Source: Butyrivibrio proteoclasticus (GTDB lineage: Bacteria; Bacillota; Clostridia; Lachnospirales; Lachnospiraceae). From it: 64,000 nt of DNA. Positions 3,039 through 52,857 of the stretch are shown here, piece after piece. How positions within the stretch are numbered: position 1 is the first letter of the stretch; every line of letters starts with the position of its first letter. The stretch spans positions 1-64,000 of the forward strand of contig NZ_FOXO01000002.1 in NCBI RefSeq assembly GCF_900115735.1, given 5' to 3'. Both the position numbers and the translations under genes were made by a program. The notes below the pieces were generated by a model that saw only the letters and a program-made list of their open reading frames with translations, was not told where the DNA came from and ran no database searches.

Positions 3039-3133
3039 TTTTGAATTAACAAGACAATAATAACATATCTGAGAAGATAAGACTAAAAAATCTGTTAAAA
3101 AATAAACAACGTTATTGAAATTAGCATCATTAT
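3039..3133. repeat. 95-bp direct repeat, right copy
   Basis: Copy of 1-95 at an offset of 3038 bp. It ends between the 18-codon ORF (leftward) and the Fe-S scaffold-like gene (rightward). A short rightward open stretch (from about 3144 to 3246) follows before the scaffold gene. It has no clear ribosome site, and I do not call it a gene. Confidence 0.9.
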
Positions 3134-5017: not shown

Positions 5018-5025
5018 CCATGATC

Positions 5026-5096
5026 ACTTGACGAGGTTTTTTCGAGTCTAGTGAGCATGGTCGTTCGGGCGAGCGCGAAGTGCGAGAGCCGAACTT
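5026..5096. repeat. 71-bp tandem repeat, copy 1
   Basis: The first of two 71-bp units 78 bp apart. Each starts ACTTGACGAGGTTTTTTCGA and ends with an imperfect hairpin closed by GTTCGG/CCGAAC. The units differ at a few positions (GCATGG versus TAAAGT; GCGAGAG versus GTTAGAG). Confidence 0.85.
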
Positions 5097-5103
5097 CATA
5101 TTA

Positions 5104-5174
5104 ACTTGACGAGGTTTTTTCGAGTCTAGTGAGTAAAGTCGTTCGGGCGAGCGCGAAGTGTTAGAGCCGAACTT
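5104..5174. repeat. 71-bp tandem repeat, copy 2
   Basis: Second unit of the tandem pair. Its left part (ACTTGACGAGGTTTTTTCGA) also resembles, on the opposite strand, the sequence at 17539-17565 downstream of groEL, so it belongs to a dispersed family. Confidence 0.85.
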
Positions 5175-14254: not shown

Positions 14255-14695
14255 CTATATTGTCGTATCCATTGCCACAGATGTATCAGCTGCAGTAGTC
14301 TTGTTTGCATCCTTGTCATAACTCTTTAGCTGATCATCAAGCCATGAAGATTTGTATTTTGCGTATTTGTCAGCGGTGACGGTTGATTCAGAAGACGTGG
14401 AAGATTCGCTTTTTGAGCTGGTTGTTGTTTTGCCTTTTCCCAAACCGTCGATGAAATCAGATTTAGAAGTAGTCTTTTTTGAACTGATGTTTGATGAAGT
14501 AGATTCAGTAGCAACAGCGGTTGAGCCTGTTTCGCGATATGCATTAAGAGCGTTCTGATTGCCAACTTTTTTCACATACGACTTCATAAGTGAGCCATAA
14601 GCACCACTTTTAATACTGGAGTAATCAGTAAGAAGACTAGTCATATCATTTACATAATTATATGAGCCAGAAAGGCTGCTGAATATATTTGCCAT
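14255..14695 (-). CDS. Ser/Thr-rich protein of unknown function
   Basis: A 146-aa protein that I do not recognise. Residues 1-55 form an ordered part (MANIFSSLSGSYNYVNDMTS, Tyr/Leu-rich); the middle (about 55-115) is a low-complexity run of Ser, Thr and Lys (TTSKSDF, TTTSSKSESSTSSES); and the end has a DDQLKSYDKDAN segment. There is no signal peptide and no Cys. The start is set by an excellent ribosome site, AGGAGGTG, 6 nt before the ATG; the in-frame extension upstream runs through the triple-hairpin element and is not likely to be translated. It sits alone between a GGDEF gene and groES with its own terminator. The composition resembles flagellar or secreted structural proteins, but this is only an impression. 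Confidence 0.65.
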   Translation of the reverse strand: MANIFSSLSGSYNYVNDMTSLLTDYSSIKSGAYGSLMKSYVKKVGNQNALNAYRETGSTAVATESTSSNISSKKTTSKSDFIDGLGKGKTTTSSKSESSTSSESTVTADKYAKYKSSWLDDQLKSYDKDANKTTAADTSVAMDTTI

Positions 14696-14746
14696 TTGCA
14701 CACCTCCTTGATAAGAATGCTTCCTTAAGGCCTCCATGCCATAAGT

Positions 14747-14892
14747 ATGACTTCTTGAACTGAATTCCAGAAATCCGCATATACTGCGGATTTCGTGAGA
14801 ATATGAGTGAAGAGTCAACCAAGCCTCATCGACGAAGTCGATTTAAATTGGCTTGGTTGATGCATTCTTGAATTGTTGATTCAAGAATGCAT
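14747..14892. ncRNA. Triple-hairpin element, copy A
   Basis: A structured repeat also present at 51937-52083. Hairpin 1: AAATCCGCA (14771-14779) with TGCGGATTT (14785-14793). Hairpin 2: CAACCAAGCC (14816-14825) with GGCTTGGTTG (14850-14859), with an inner stem ATCGAC/GTCGAT (14828-14842). Hairpin 3: a 13-bp stem (14861-14873 with 14879-14891) and a 5-nt loop. All stems are perfect. Differences from copy B inside stems are paired. It lies upstream of the leftward gene at 14695 and far upstream of groES. Whether it acts as RNA or DNA is not shown; the type label is a guess. Confidence 0.6.
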
Positions 14893-15165
14893 AATATTAC
14901 GCATATTATTAAGGATATTATCACAGAAAAGTGGCACAGTTACAATTTCTTTCAAATTAAATTAGTATAAAAAAATATTAAAGTATTTTTTTTATTCCTC
15001 ATTGAATGTAAATATTTGTTTTCAACACTTCGGCAATATGTTGAATGATCCCATAAATAGTAGGCTTAAACATGCTCAAAAGAAACAAAATATAGAAAAA
15101 GCAAGAAAAAAAGAGAAATGAAGAGATAAAAGGAGTATAGAGTAAAAAATAGAGCTTTTTACAGC
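14893..15165. other. A+T-rich intergenic stretch before groES
   Basis: Between the triple-hairpin element and the groESL promoter I see no gene, strong hairpin or recognised site. It is A+T-rich, with a GGAG-like run at 15131-15134 that is not followed by a start codon of any open frame. Confidence 0.5.
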
Positions 15166-17267: not shown

Positions 17268-17404
17268 CCAAGCTCCAATACATAATCAAAACCGCTTTAG
17301 CGGTAACAATAGAGAAAACCACGGAACCAAGTTTACTTGGTGTTCCGTGGTTTTTCTATTGTTATATGTGCGATAGCACATTATGATTATGTATTGGAGC
17401 TTGG
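17268..17404. repeat. Cloverleaf-shaped palindrome after groEL
   Basis: A perfect 21-bp outer stem (17268-17288 with 17384-17404) encloses three hairpins: ACCGC-ttta-GCGGT (17291-17304), a long arm (17305-17327 with about 17341-17363, almost perfect), and ATGTGC-gata-GCACAT (17366-17381). It starts 11 bp after the groEL stop. The 21-bp ends could also be read as terminal inverted repeats of a small non-coding mobile element. Confidence 0.75.
17317..17356 (+). terminator. groEL terminator
   Basis: Within the central arm of the cloverleaf, CCACGGAAC...GTTCCGTGG with an inner CAAG-ttta-CTTG is followed by TTTTTC. It could end groESL transcription. Confidence 0.65.
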
Positions 17405-17410
17405 CGACAA

Positions 17411-17470
17411 CGGACGACAGGGAAATTGCGAAGCAATTTCGCTGTATAAGCGATAAACCGCCTCGCCAAC
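17411..17470. repeat. 60-bp repeat, copy 1
   Basis: A 60-bp unit that contains the hairpin GAAATTGC-gaa-GCAATTTC and ends CGCCTCGCCAAC. Repeated at 17578-17637 with a single mismatch. Confidence 0.9.
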
Positions 17471-17538: not shown

Positions 17539-17565
17539 ACTAAGCTCGAAAAAACCTCGCTAAGT
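17539..17565. repeat. Fragment of the repeat family seen at 5026-5174
   Basis: Reverse-complement similarity to the start of the 71-bp repeats: both share the core TCGAAAAAACCTCG with flanking ACT and AAGT. It lies between the two 60-bp repeats. Confidence 0.6.
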
Positions 17566-17577
17566 ACTCTGCACAAA

Positions 17578-17637
17578 CGGACGACAGGGAAATTGCGAAG
17601 CAATTTCGCTGTATGAGCGATAAACCGCCTCGCCAAC
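17578..17637. repeat. 60-bp repeat, copy 2
   Basis: Second copy of the 60-bp unit, 167 bp from the first, in the same orientation. The rest of 17257-17744 holds no gene that I can support. Confidence 0.9.
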
Positions 17638-51031: not shown

Positions 51032-51907
51032 ATGGCAATATATTTGGTAATAGCACTGATTGTGCTGATAATATTATGCGTTCTGGTAATTTATCATGAC
51101 ACGCACAGTTTTGTTGTGAGAAATTATGAGATAAAGTCAAACAAAGTAACTGAAGATTTTAAGTTTGTTTTTCTTTCGGATCTTCATGGGTACGTTTTTG
51201 GGAATAATAATGATAAGCTTATTAAAGCGATTGATGAGATAAATCCTGATGCTATAATTTGCGGCGGAGATATGTTTACAGCCCATGCTAAGGACGGGAA
51301 AATAAAATACGAGCCCGGATTTGACCTTATCAGAAATCTTTCCGGCAAGTATAAGGTCTATTATGCAAATGGTAACCACGAGTATAAGGTGAAATTTTTT
51401 ACAAAAGAATTTGGTAATTTCTATGATAGATACAGGAGCAGACTGAAAAAAGAAGGGGTTGTCTTTTTGGAGAATGACTCTGTTTGGCTTGAAGATAAAA
51501 ACATAAGGATCACAGGTCTTGATCTAAATCTTGAGTACTTTAGAAAAGTAGTAAAAAGAAAAATGGATCCTTCACTGATGGGAAGGCTTGTCGGGAATAT
51601 TAATGACAAAGAAAAAGAGAGGTTTCAGCTTCTTATTGCGCATAATCCCCAGTATTTTGAAAATTATGCATCCTGGGGTGCCGATCTTACAATGTCAGGG
51701 CATGTTCATGGCGGAATCGTAAGACTTCCGATACTTGGAGGCGTTATCTCTCCATCAATAGCTCTTTTTCCGAAATATGATGGAGGCTTTTATAAAAAGG
51801 GCGAGAAGACAATGATCCTGGGAAGAGGACTTGGAACTCATACAGTACATGTGAGATTTTTAAATCCCGGAGAAATTTGCGTGGTAAACATCAAGTGCGG
51901 GATTTGA
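51032..51907 (+). CDS. Membrane-anchored metallophosphoesterase (YkuE-like)
   Basis: A 291-aa protein with one N-terminal membrane helix (IYLVIALIVLIILCVLVIY) and an outward or inward phosphoesterase domain. All metal motifs are present: SDLHG (around residue 50), CGGDMF (around 81), NGNHE (around 116), AHNP (around 209) and SGHVHGG (around 230). This layout fits the YkuE/LpxH-like group of cell-envelope phosphoesterases. Its TGA stop lies within the hairpin repeat that begins the triple-hairpin copy B. Confidence 0.9.
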   Translation: MAIYLVIALIVLIILCVLVIYHDTHSFVVRNYEIKSNKVTEDFKFVFLSDLHGYVFGNNNDKLIKAIDEINPDAIICGGDMFTAHAKDGKIKYEPGFDLIRNLSGKYKVYYANGNHEYKVKFFTKEFGNFYDRYRSRLKKEGVVFLENDSVWLEDKNIRITGLDLNLEYFRKVVKRKMDPSLMGRLVGNINDKEKERFQLLIAHNPQYFENYASWGADLTMSGHVHGGIVRLPILGGVISPSIALFPKYDGGFYKKGEKTMILGRGLGTHTVHVRFLNPGEICVVNIKCGI

Positions 51908-51939
51908 TGCATTCTTGAATTGTTGATTCAAGAATGCAT
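51904..51939. repeat. 36-bp hairpin identical to hairpin 3 of copy A
   Basis: Identical over 36 bp to 14857-14892. The 13-bp stem (51908-51920 with 51926-51938) begins at the stop codon of the phosphoesterase gene, so the repeat supplies that stop. It could act as a transcript 3' end, although no T-run follows. Confidence 0.85.
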
Positions 51940-52083
51940 GACTTATTAAATGAAATTACAGAAACCCGCACTTGCTGCGGGTTTCGTGAGAAGGTGATAC
52001 AAGGGTCAACCATGCCTCATCGACGTAGTCGATTCAATTTGGCATGGTTGATATATTCTTGAACTTTATGTTCAAGAATATAT
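51937..52083. ncRNA. Triple-hairpin element, copy B
   Basis: Hairpin 1: AAACCCGCA (51962-51970) with TGCGGGTTT (51976-51984). Hairpin 2: CAACCATGCC (52007-52016) with GGCATGGTTG (52041-52050), with inner ATCGAC/GTCGAT (52019-52033). Hairpin 3: a 13-bp stem (52052-52064 with 52070-52082). The linker TTTCGTGAGAA after hairpin 1 matches copy A. It ends 25 bp before scpA, so in this copy it is in the scpA leader if transcribed from upstream. Confidence 0.6.
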
Positions 52084-52107: not shown

Positions 52108-52857
52108 ATGTCACTAGAGATTAAACTTCAGGTCTTTGAGGGCCCGATGGACCTTTTGATGCACCTGATAGATAAAAACCAGATAGATATCTATGATATT
52201 CCTATTGTAACCATTACGGAACAGTACATGGAATACATCAATGCCATGCAAAAAGAGGATATGGAAGTTACCAGTGAATTTTTGGTAATGGCAGCAACTC
52301 TTATTGATATCAAATGCAAGATGCTTCTTCCTAAGGAAGTCAATGAGGATGGAGAAGAAGAGGATCCAAGAGCTGAGCTTGTTGAAAAACTGCTTGAATA
52401 TAAAATGTACAAATATATGGCATATGAACTTAAAGACAGGCAAATGGATGCAGGCTTGTCCTGGTTTAGACACAAGGATATTCCCAAAGAGGTAAAAGAA
52501 TACGAGGTTCCAATAGATTTTAGTGACCTTATCGGTGACGCAACTCTCACAAAACTTAATGAGATATTTCAGGACTTGCTTAAAAGGCAGGAAGATAAGG
52601 TGGATCCAATCCGTAGTAAGTTTGGAAATATTGAGAAAGAAACTGTGGATATGGATGCTAAGACACTTTATATCAAGGCATATATTAGAGAACATAAAAC
52701 TTTTAGTTTTAGACAACTCTTGGAAAAGCAGCATAGTAAGACGGAGGTTATCGTTACATTTCTTATAGTTCTTGAGGAAATGAAACTTGGAGAAATTGAG
52801 ATACAGCAGGACGGGACCTTTGCAGATATAATAATTACTTCCAGAAAGGCAAGCTGA
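52108..52857 (+). CDS. scpA: Segregation and condensation protein ScpA
   Basis: A 249-aa kleisin that bridges the SMC dimer in bacterial condensin. It begins LEIKLQVFEGPMDLLMHLIDKNQIDIYDIPI (family N-terminus, residues 3-33, binds the SMC neck) and ends with a winged-helix part (KTEVIVTFLIVLEEMKLGEI). The start is the ATG after GAGGAG. It is followed by scpB after 4 bp, the standard pair. smc is not in the window. Confidence 0.96.
   Translation: MSLEIKLQVFEGPMDLLMHLIDKNQIDIYDIPIVTITEQYMEYINAMQKEDMEVTSEFLVMAATLIDIKCKMLLPKEVNEDGEEEDPRAELVEKLLEYKMYKYMAYELKDRQMDAGLSWFRHKDIPKEVKEYEVPIDFSDLIGDATLTKLNEIFQDLLKRQEDKVDPIRSKFGNIEKETVDMDAKTLYIKAYIREHKTFSFRQLLEKQHSKTEVIVTFLIVLEEMKLGEIEIQQDGTFADIIITSRKAS

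Follow-up and report, generated by a model that had tools for sequence, protein, structure and literature searches.

A mobile miniature element with a conserved three-hairpin core and two kinds of ends in Butyrivibrio and other Lachnospiraceae

MITE-like elements are usually regarded as deletion products of a single insertion sequence (IS), in which the ends alone are under selection. Correia, ERIC and RUP elements are non-autonomous intergenic elements of 100-160 bp with terminal inverted repeats and a TA duplication, Rickettsia palindromic elements are dispersed, hairpin-forming sequences of ~150 bp that are inserted in frame in genes, and the IS66 group has ends beginning GTAA and an 8-bp duplication. 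The bcr1-bcr3 elements of the Bacillus cereus group are described, in the cited parts of PMC3446304 and PMC6542083, as short, intergenic, high-copy elements that are likened to MITEs and often lie within transcripts, and the cited part of PMC6542083 ties their mobility to a TTTAT motif. REPINs and the REP-RAYT system comprise dispersed palindromes that occur as lone hairpins and in composite forms (PMC3116915 and PMC3733652, in the parts cited).

The element described here is a real, widespread, mobile and structure-conserved miniature with the size, inverted repeats and target duplication of a MITE. It resembles the bcr elements in its shortness, intergenic position, high copy number and MITE-like character, but occurs in another bacterial family and shows AT or 8-bp duplications instead of the TTTAT motif, a distinction based on description and not on sequence comparison. 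Dispersed palindromes in lone and composite forms are common to it and REPINs, whereas terminal inverted repeats and target duplications distinguish the present element; the GTAG/CGTC tag was absent beside four lone hairpins that were read, and no fixed tag was seen in the flanks of 106 AT-type copies. It differs from Correia, ERIC and RUP elements in duplicating AT or 8 bp instead of TA and in the structure of its core. IS66-related MITEs are similar to one of its two types, designated GTWAC, in 8-bp duplications and, in some genera, GTAA-type ends, but the three-hairpin core sets the element apart, and its other type, designated AT, has neither IS66 feature. No description of it in Butyrivibrio or Lachnospiraceae was found in the literature searched, which covered few subscription journals.

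The window, that is, the whole 64,000-nucleotide stretch of Butyrivibrio proteoclasticus DNA analyzed here, contains two complete copies on the plus strand, which an earlier note had described as two elements of the same layout with three hairpins each; both are present and both fold so. The first, of type A, is 146 bp long with AT at either end and occupies 14747..14892, as had been proposed, its limits being defined by comparison of 30 own-genome copies and by one empty site. Its left end ATGACTTCTTGAA (14747..14759) reads as an imperfect inverted repeat of the right end TTCAAGAATGCAT. Hairpin 1 (14770..14794) has arms at 14770-14779 and 14785-14794 and the loop TATAC at 14780-14784, in which a T-A pair encloses 2 nt and is followed by an unpaired C. 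The 20-nt linker GTGAGAATATGAGTGAAGAG (14795..14814), related in most subfamilies, leads to hairpin 2 (14815..14860), whose outer arms (14815-14825 and 14850-14860) enclose an inner stem-loop at 14829-14841 with a stem of 14829-14833 and 14837-14841 and a GAA triloop at 14834-14836. Hairpin 3 (14860..14892) is the right end, a 33-bp palindrome that elsewhere also occurs alone.

The second copy, of type B, starts at 51938, not at 51937 as previously given, and ends at 52083, with a metallophosphoesterase gene (51032-51907) on one side and scpA (52108-52857) on the other. Its hairpins lie at 51961..51985 (hairpin 1, loop CTTGC), 52006..52051 (hairpin 2) and 52051..52083 (hairpin 3), and a lone 33-bp type-A right hairpin (51907..51939, plus strand) is found directly 5' of it, the AT at 51938-51939 being common to both. 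The two complete copies are 79% identical over 149 nt, an agreement not due to chance. The five paired stem differences reported between them were all recovered, and a sixth compensatory change was recognized in the hairpin 1 loop, where TATAC is replaced by CTTGC and loop positions 1 and 4 change from T-A to C-G. The shared linker motif TTTCGTGAGAA is also present, but alone it is not significant in the window (three matches at up to one mismatch, with as many in 17 of 100 shuffles).

A minus-strand ORF with no Pfam match starts at 14695, 51 bp from the type A copy, which lies upstream of it, and groES-groEL begins 389 bp past the copy. At 146 bp the element could hold at most 48 codons and has no transposase gene inside; a mechanically called 187-aa ORF with a TTG start (14255-14818, minus strand) enters it from outside. 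A small peptide gene was rejected, as the frame is open in some copies but is shifted by the 5- or 6-nt hairpin 1 loops and contains stops in others. The window also carries other repeats: a 95-bp perfect direct repeat (1-95 and 3039-3133, 3 kb apart); a second dispersed repeat, ACTTGACGAGGTTTTTTCGAGTCTAGT, with inverted relatives (5026-5052, 5104-5130 and 17539-17565; also near the middle of locus L086), the first two belonging to a 78-bp tandem pair (5019-5174) with a similar stretch on contig C61; and a 62-bp repeat of 98% identity (17409-17470 and 17576-17637) beside inverted arms at 17268-17291 and 17381-17404.

At least 42 full copies were identified in the 4.17-Mb genome of this organism, 39 by blastn and three by a covariance model. 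With the first copy as query, blastn yielded 34 copies at 88-100% identity, a number that includes the query and one copy truncated at a contig end, and five more at 80%, the type B window copy among them; the covariance model, built from 23 copies of 15 genomes, added C62:9199, C66:11453 and C63:123584. Such a search of the own genome and its relatives had been suggested as a check, and it indeed produced further copies whose stem changes are paired. When the best 40 matches per genome were scored, matches were obtained in 62 of 79 Butyrivibrio genomes, and a sample of the family Lachnospiraceae gave matches in 53 of 397 genomes and 45 of 334 genera (E up to 1e-4, most matches uninspected). 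Hairpin 2 was predicted in all ten family loci that were inspected; minimum-energy folds with flanks disrupt another hairpin in some of them (L315, L316 and L320), whereas L317 and L318 have a diverged linker. No copies were detected by blastn, which is far less sensitive than the covariance model, in 24 genomes from the same order but outside the family.

As had been surmised, the element corresponds to no known Rfam family: the whole window gave no Rfam 15 match at the gathering threshold, permissive hits for 14700-14950 were all far below it, and none of seven Rfam 15 matches in ten loci of other subfamilies fell on the element. Among plasmids, B. fibrisolvens pNP243 was the sole match to a type A query, and a query from L316 found none. 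Unannotated human faecal contigs filed as phage (MT836459, MT837311, MT839789, MT836432 and MT839453) contain relatives of the GTWAC type at 80-84% identity, in three of the five as a match that spans most of the query; an exact search of viral contigs for a 17-base linker variant gave seven matches, none with three hairpins by eye.

Type A, type B and similar copies start with a ATGnnnTCTTGAA-like sequence and carry it at the other end as a 33-bp palindrome, with imperfect terminal inverted repeats (ATGACWTCTTGAA / TTCAAGAATGCAT). The sole AT-type empty site seen, in genome G088 (contig C82), reads GACTAATG-AT-AATAAGTC, and the corresponding own-genome site (C60:56506) reads GACTAATG-[AT...AT]-AATAAGTC; thus AT is present once when the site is empty and twice when it is filled. 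The palindrome of the empty site, GGACGGTTAATTTGACTAATG-AT-AATAAGTCAAATTAACCGTCC, is intact in G088 only among the 79 genomes searched. For the flanks, 106 sites with AT at both ends and a length of 138-150 nt were kept from 232 aligned, after removal of copies with GTWAC or other non-AT ends, copies too near a locus end, repeats, and copies outside this length range. Y-AT-R was found at 90 of the 106, A-rich before and T-rich after; 8-bp flanks that match at seven or more positions occurred in none, and individual flanks had no inverted symmetry beyond Y-AT-R (1892 of 2000 shuffles were equal or higher). This type is mainly confined to Butyrivibrio, although L312, of another genus, looks alike.

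Abutting copies have exactly the AT in common at at least 13 junctions, a count that leaves out one 3-base overlap (G101:C201), and 12 of 13 are in the same orientation. Right hairpins also occur alone: six were inspected in the own genome (C36:21835, C45:151049, C46:51907, C57:4223, C57:33656 and C66:30936), and C52:2796 is a possible, uninspected seventh. Since C36:21835 and C57:4223 have the same hybrid sequence, lone hairpins may move alone, or may be left behind when a deletion joins the left end to a like-oriented hairpin 3 arm. At L189 (5225-5303, minus strand), a ATGACATCTTGAA left end is immediately followed by a GTTACTGTTCA left end, which may reflect insertion of one type into the other.

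The second end type has GTWACnRTTCA at both termini and the same core. Among the Butyrivibrio copies in which it was first seen, nine had full flanks, with 8-bp duplications that were perfect in eight and matched at 7 of 8 positions in the ninth; among 36 copies chosen by end motifs and linker, other genera included, 21 had a perfect 8-bp duplication, six matched at 7 of 8 and nine were lower. These copies are 131-146 bp long without the duplication and start with GTTA in Butyrivibrio and GTAA in other genera. The core common to both end types suggests that ends have been exchanged on a conserved core, and nothing else in this study is as unusual as the finding of two end kinds, each with its own duplication length, on a single core.

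Covariation in the stems is strong. In 23 aligned copies, 94.0% of cells were paired and 23 of 40 pairs had changed on both sides, which none of 500 shuffles reached; when partners were slid by 1-3 columns, pairing fell to 29-44%, a control that leans in favour of the structure because the structure was drawn from the same sequences. Distant members have a different hairpin 1 sequence, for example GCAGCCAGCA in place of GAAATCCGCA, with unchanged stem length, and the linker GTGAGAAnATGATnCAAGAG is common to many but not all, one subfamily having GTGATTCRATGAATCGGTTG instead. A scripted rule that requires a 5- or 6-nt hairpin 1 loop gave 136 distinct cores, 134 of which were used for that loop: the first and penultimate positions could pair around 2-3 nt in 128 (T-A 85, C-G 42 and A-T 1), and the last base was C in 127. 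Of the 22 distinct 5-nt loops 20 pair, and none of 10000 shuffles did as well. The inner loop of hairpin 2, readable in 128 of the 136 cores, comprised 108 triloops (GNA in 96 and AAA in eight, with a C-G closing pair in 107) and 20 tetraloops (GNNA in eight, CCTA in six, TTTA in four and others in two). GNA and GNNA loops with G-C closing pairs are reported, in the cited part of PMC4686876, to form extraordinarily stable mini-hairpins in DNA. ViennaRNA gives no bonus for GNA triloops with either DNA or RNA parameters.

Mismatches in hairpin 1 were counted over 164 distinct hairpin-plus-linker stretches, which are related and not independent: 25 were G.T, eight A.C and 20 other, and the excess of G.T over A.C suggests that one strand seems to fold. 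This count was used in place of that from model alignments of 44 representatives (34 G.U, 12 A.C and 1639 Watson-Crick cells), which was set aside because the filter favours G.U. The loop details and the mismatch bias together lean towards a folded single strand, perhaps of DNA rather than RNA. The RNA CUUG tetraloop has a C-G Watson-Crick pair around two bases, and because it likewise pairs around 2 nt, the loops are also compatible with a folded RNA.

Genomic context was analyzed for 142 distinct copies, 22 of which were too near a locus end, with ORFs called by length alone. Only two of the 120 placed copies lie inside a called ORF, unlike the in-gene Rickettsia palindromic elements, and 18 of the 120 overlap one partly. 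An upstream called ORF ends 4 bp into the element in seven of the 120, the ATGA of the element providing the stop codon. Between non-overlapping genes of the same direction, the element runs along the genes in 56 cases and against them in 23. In genome G061, among the 36 sites of the matches listed, it runs along the genes in 17 of 23 same-direction sites and in seven of 13 elsewhere. With the replication terminus of that genome set at half the length, 84 of 110 flanking ORFs are on the leading strand, 25 of the 36 listed elements are co-directional with the fork, and there is one lagging-strand gene site among the matches listed; transcription and replication biases are inseparable in G061, because genes and forks run together.

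Two other explanations of the paired stems should be weighed. It is possible, although on balance doubtful, that the core is a structured RNA, either regulatory or trans-acting as cargo of a MITE, or cis-acting in host mRNAs. The excess of G.T over A.C, which implies the folding of one strand, is consistent with this, as is the preference for the direction of flanking genes (56 versus 23, and 17 of 23 versus seven of 13 elsewhere in G061), but gene direction is confounded with replication in G061, the loops are DNA-like, Rfam has no match, and G.U pairs are rare beside Watson-Crick pairs even under a filter that favours them. Template switching during replication can equalize the arms of DNA palindromes and is known in bacteria, and the almost uniformly perfect Watson-Crick stems would fit an origin of the compensatory changes by such quasi-palindrome correction in the absence of structural selection. 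This appears quite unlikely, as the 25:8 imbalance of G.T and A.C would be unexpected if the strands were equal, and while stem sequences vary, the lengths of stems and loops, the pair in the loop and the class of triloop stay constant; the kinship of the copies makes these points not decisive. The earlier note had taken the paired changes as the mark of selection on structure, a reading that covariation and the mismatch excess support without proving it, given template switching and the fact that changes in related sequences are not independent events.

The possibility of a non-coding mobile repeat, one of several that the earlier note had raised, is borne out by the empty site, the target duplications and the dispersed and tandem copies. 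A non-exhaustive search of IS200, IS1182 and IS66 loci and of 277 loci (1.26 Mb) yielded no autonomous partner with the same ends. These 277 loci contained no GTWAC end pairs 200-4000 bp apart, and their ATG-end pairs were three matches of 288-437 bp, all beginning at known copies and with contents unread. IS1182 targets palindromes, but was rejected as mobilizer: its ends, where found, are GGGGCTGTCGC or CAGACTGTAGACAAAGT, and matches to the element ends were scattered, one-mismatch and unpaired. Some Butyrivibrio IS1182-type elements (L232, L234, L237 and L238) themselves lie within palindromes, their inverted repeats continuing past the IS ends. For IS66, 12 genomes and five long copies were used. 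The copies scanned with 1.5 kb on either side had no end pair matching the element; in wider regions, ends were recognized in two of five (GTAAACGTCAAACC and GTAAGCGTCAAATC, with 8-bp duplications TAACATCG and GTCTTTAG) and not found for the other three. These ends are close but not identical to the GTWAC ends of the element, and because of the similar ends and the 8-bp duplications, it is a reasonable guess from sequence that an IS66-like enzyme may move the GTWAC type. No comparable candidate was found for the AT type.

Movement by a HUH (Y1) transposase of the IS200/IS605 or RAYT kind through the hairpins, as in REPINs, would agree with hairpins that carry an unpaired base and with the 12 PF01797 (Y1) matches, some of them fragments, in the own genome; this seems very improbable, since the GTWAC type has 8-bp duplications, which to our knowledge Y1 enzymes do not make, own-genome IS200 loci lack paired ends like those of the element, and AT-type flanks are loosely A-rich/GY with no fixed tetranucleotide. 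A scan of eight IS200/IS605 loci gave one isolated one-error match (L078) and no paired ends, and a Y1 gene ~190 bp from the C62:9199 copy appears to belong to an independent insertion whose ends differ. The AT type might alternatively be moved by a site-specific recombinase with AT as crossover dinucleotide, a circular form giving rise to same-orientation tandem arrays. The 2-bp AT, the Y-AT-R target and the common orientation of abutting pairs all point this way, but slippage can also produce tandem copies and the GTWAC type duplicates 8 bp on the same core, so that we consider it unlikely.

The best explanation, which we regard as probable, is a non-autonomous MITE-like element of ~145 bp that is mobilized in trans and whose core is kept as a folded single strand. 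Its dispersal, ends and target duplications are direct observations; because no cognate transposase was found, we infer the mobilization in trans. According to this explanation, transposases recognizing its ends would move the element, whose layout is a left end, then hairpin 1, the 20-nt linker and hairpin 2 with its inner mini-hairpin, and then a right end that is a palindrome of the end sequence. Elements with GTWACnRTTCA ends and 8-bp duplications occur in a number of lachnospiraceous genera and may be IS66-like in those respects, and elements with ATGnnnTCTTGAA-like ends, mostly in Butyrivibrio, would enter Y-AT-R, with A-rich sequence before and T-rich sequence after, and double the AT alone. 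A folded single strand of the core, more likely DNA (on the lagging strand or as an extruded hairpin) than RNA, would keep the stems paired, and one possible role of the core is to be recognized by a protein that aids transposition or replication of the element. More tentatively, and only as a speculative possibility, the hairpin core could be a selfish module, a folded single-stranded DNA signal read by a host or element protein, that has survived changes in its transposition machinery by refitting its ends (8-bp and AT) and spreading through Lachnospiraceae.

These findings offer annotators an explanation for the dozens of intergenic repeats that have gone unexplained in some genomes, and they also caution that covariation can flag mobile DNA instead of a new RNA. 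Unlike in the usual view of MITEs, the inside is conserved and the ends are variable, in an element matched in 45 of 334 genera sampled from a major gut family, and this raises the testable question of what service the folded core performs for the element or its host.
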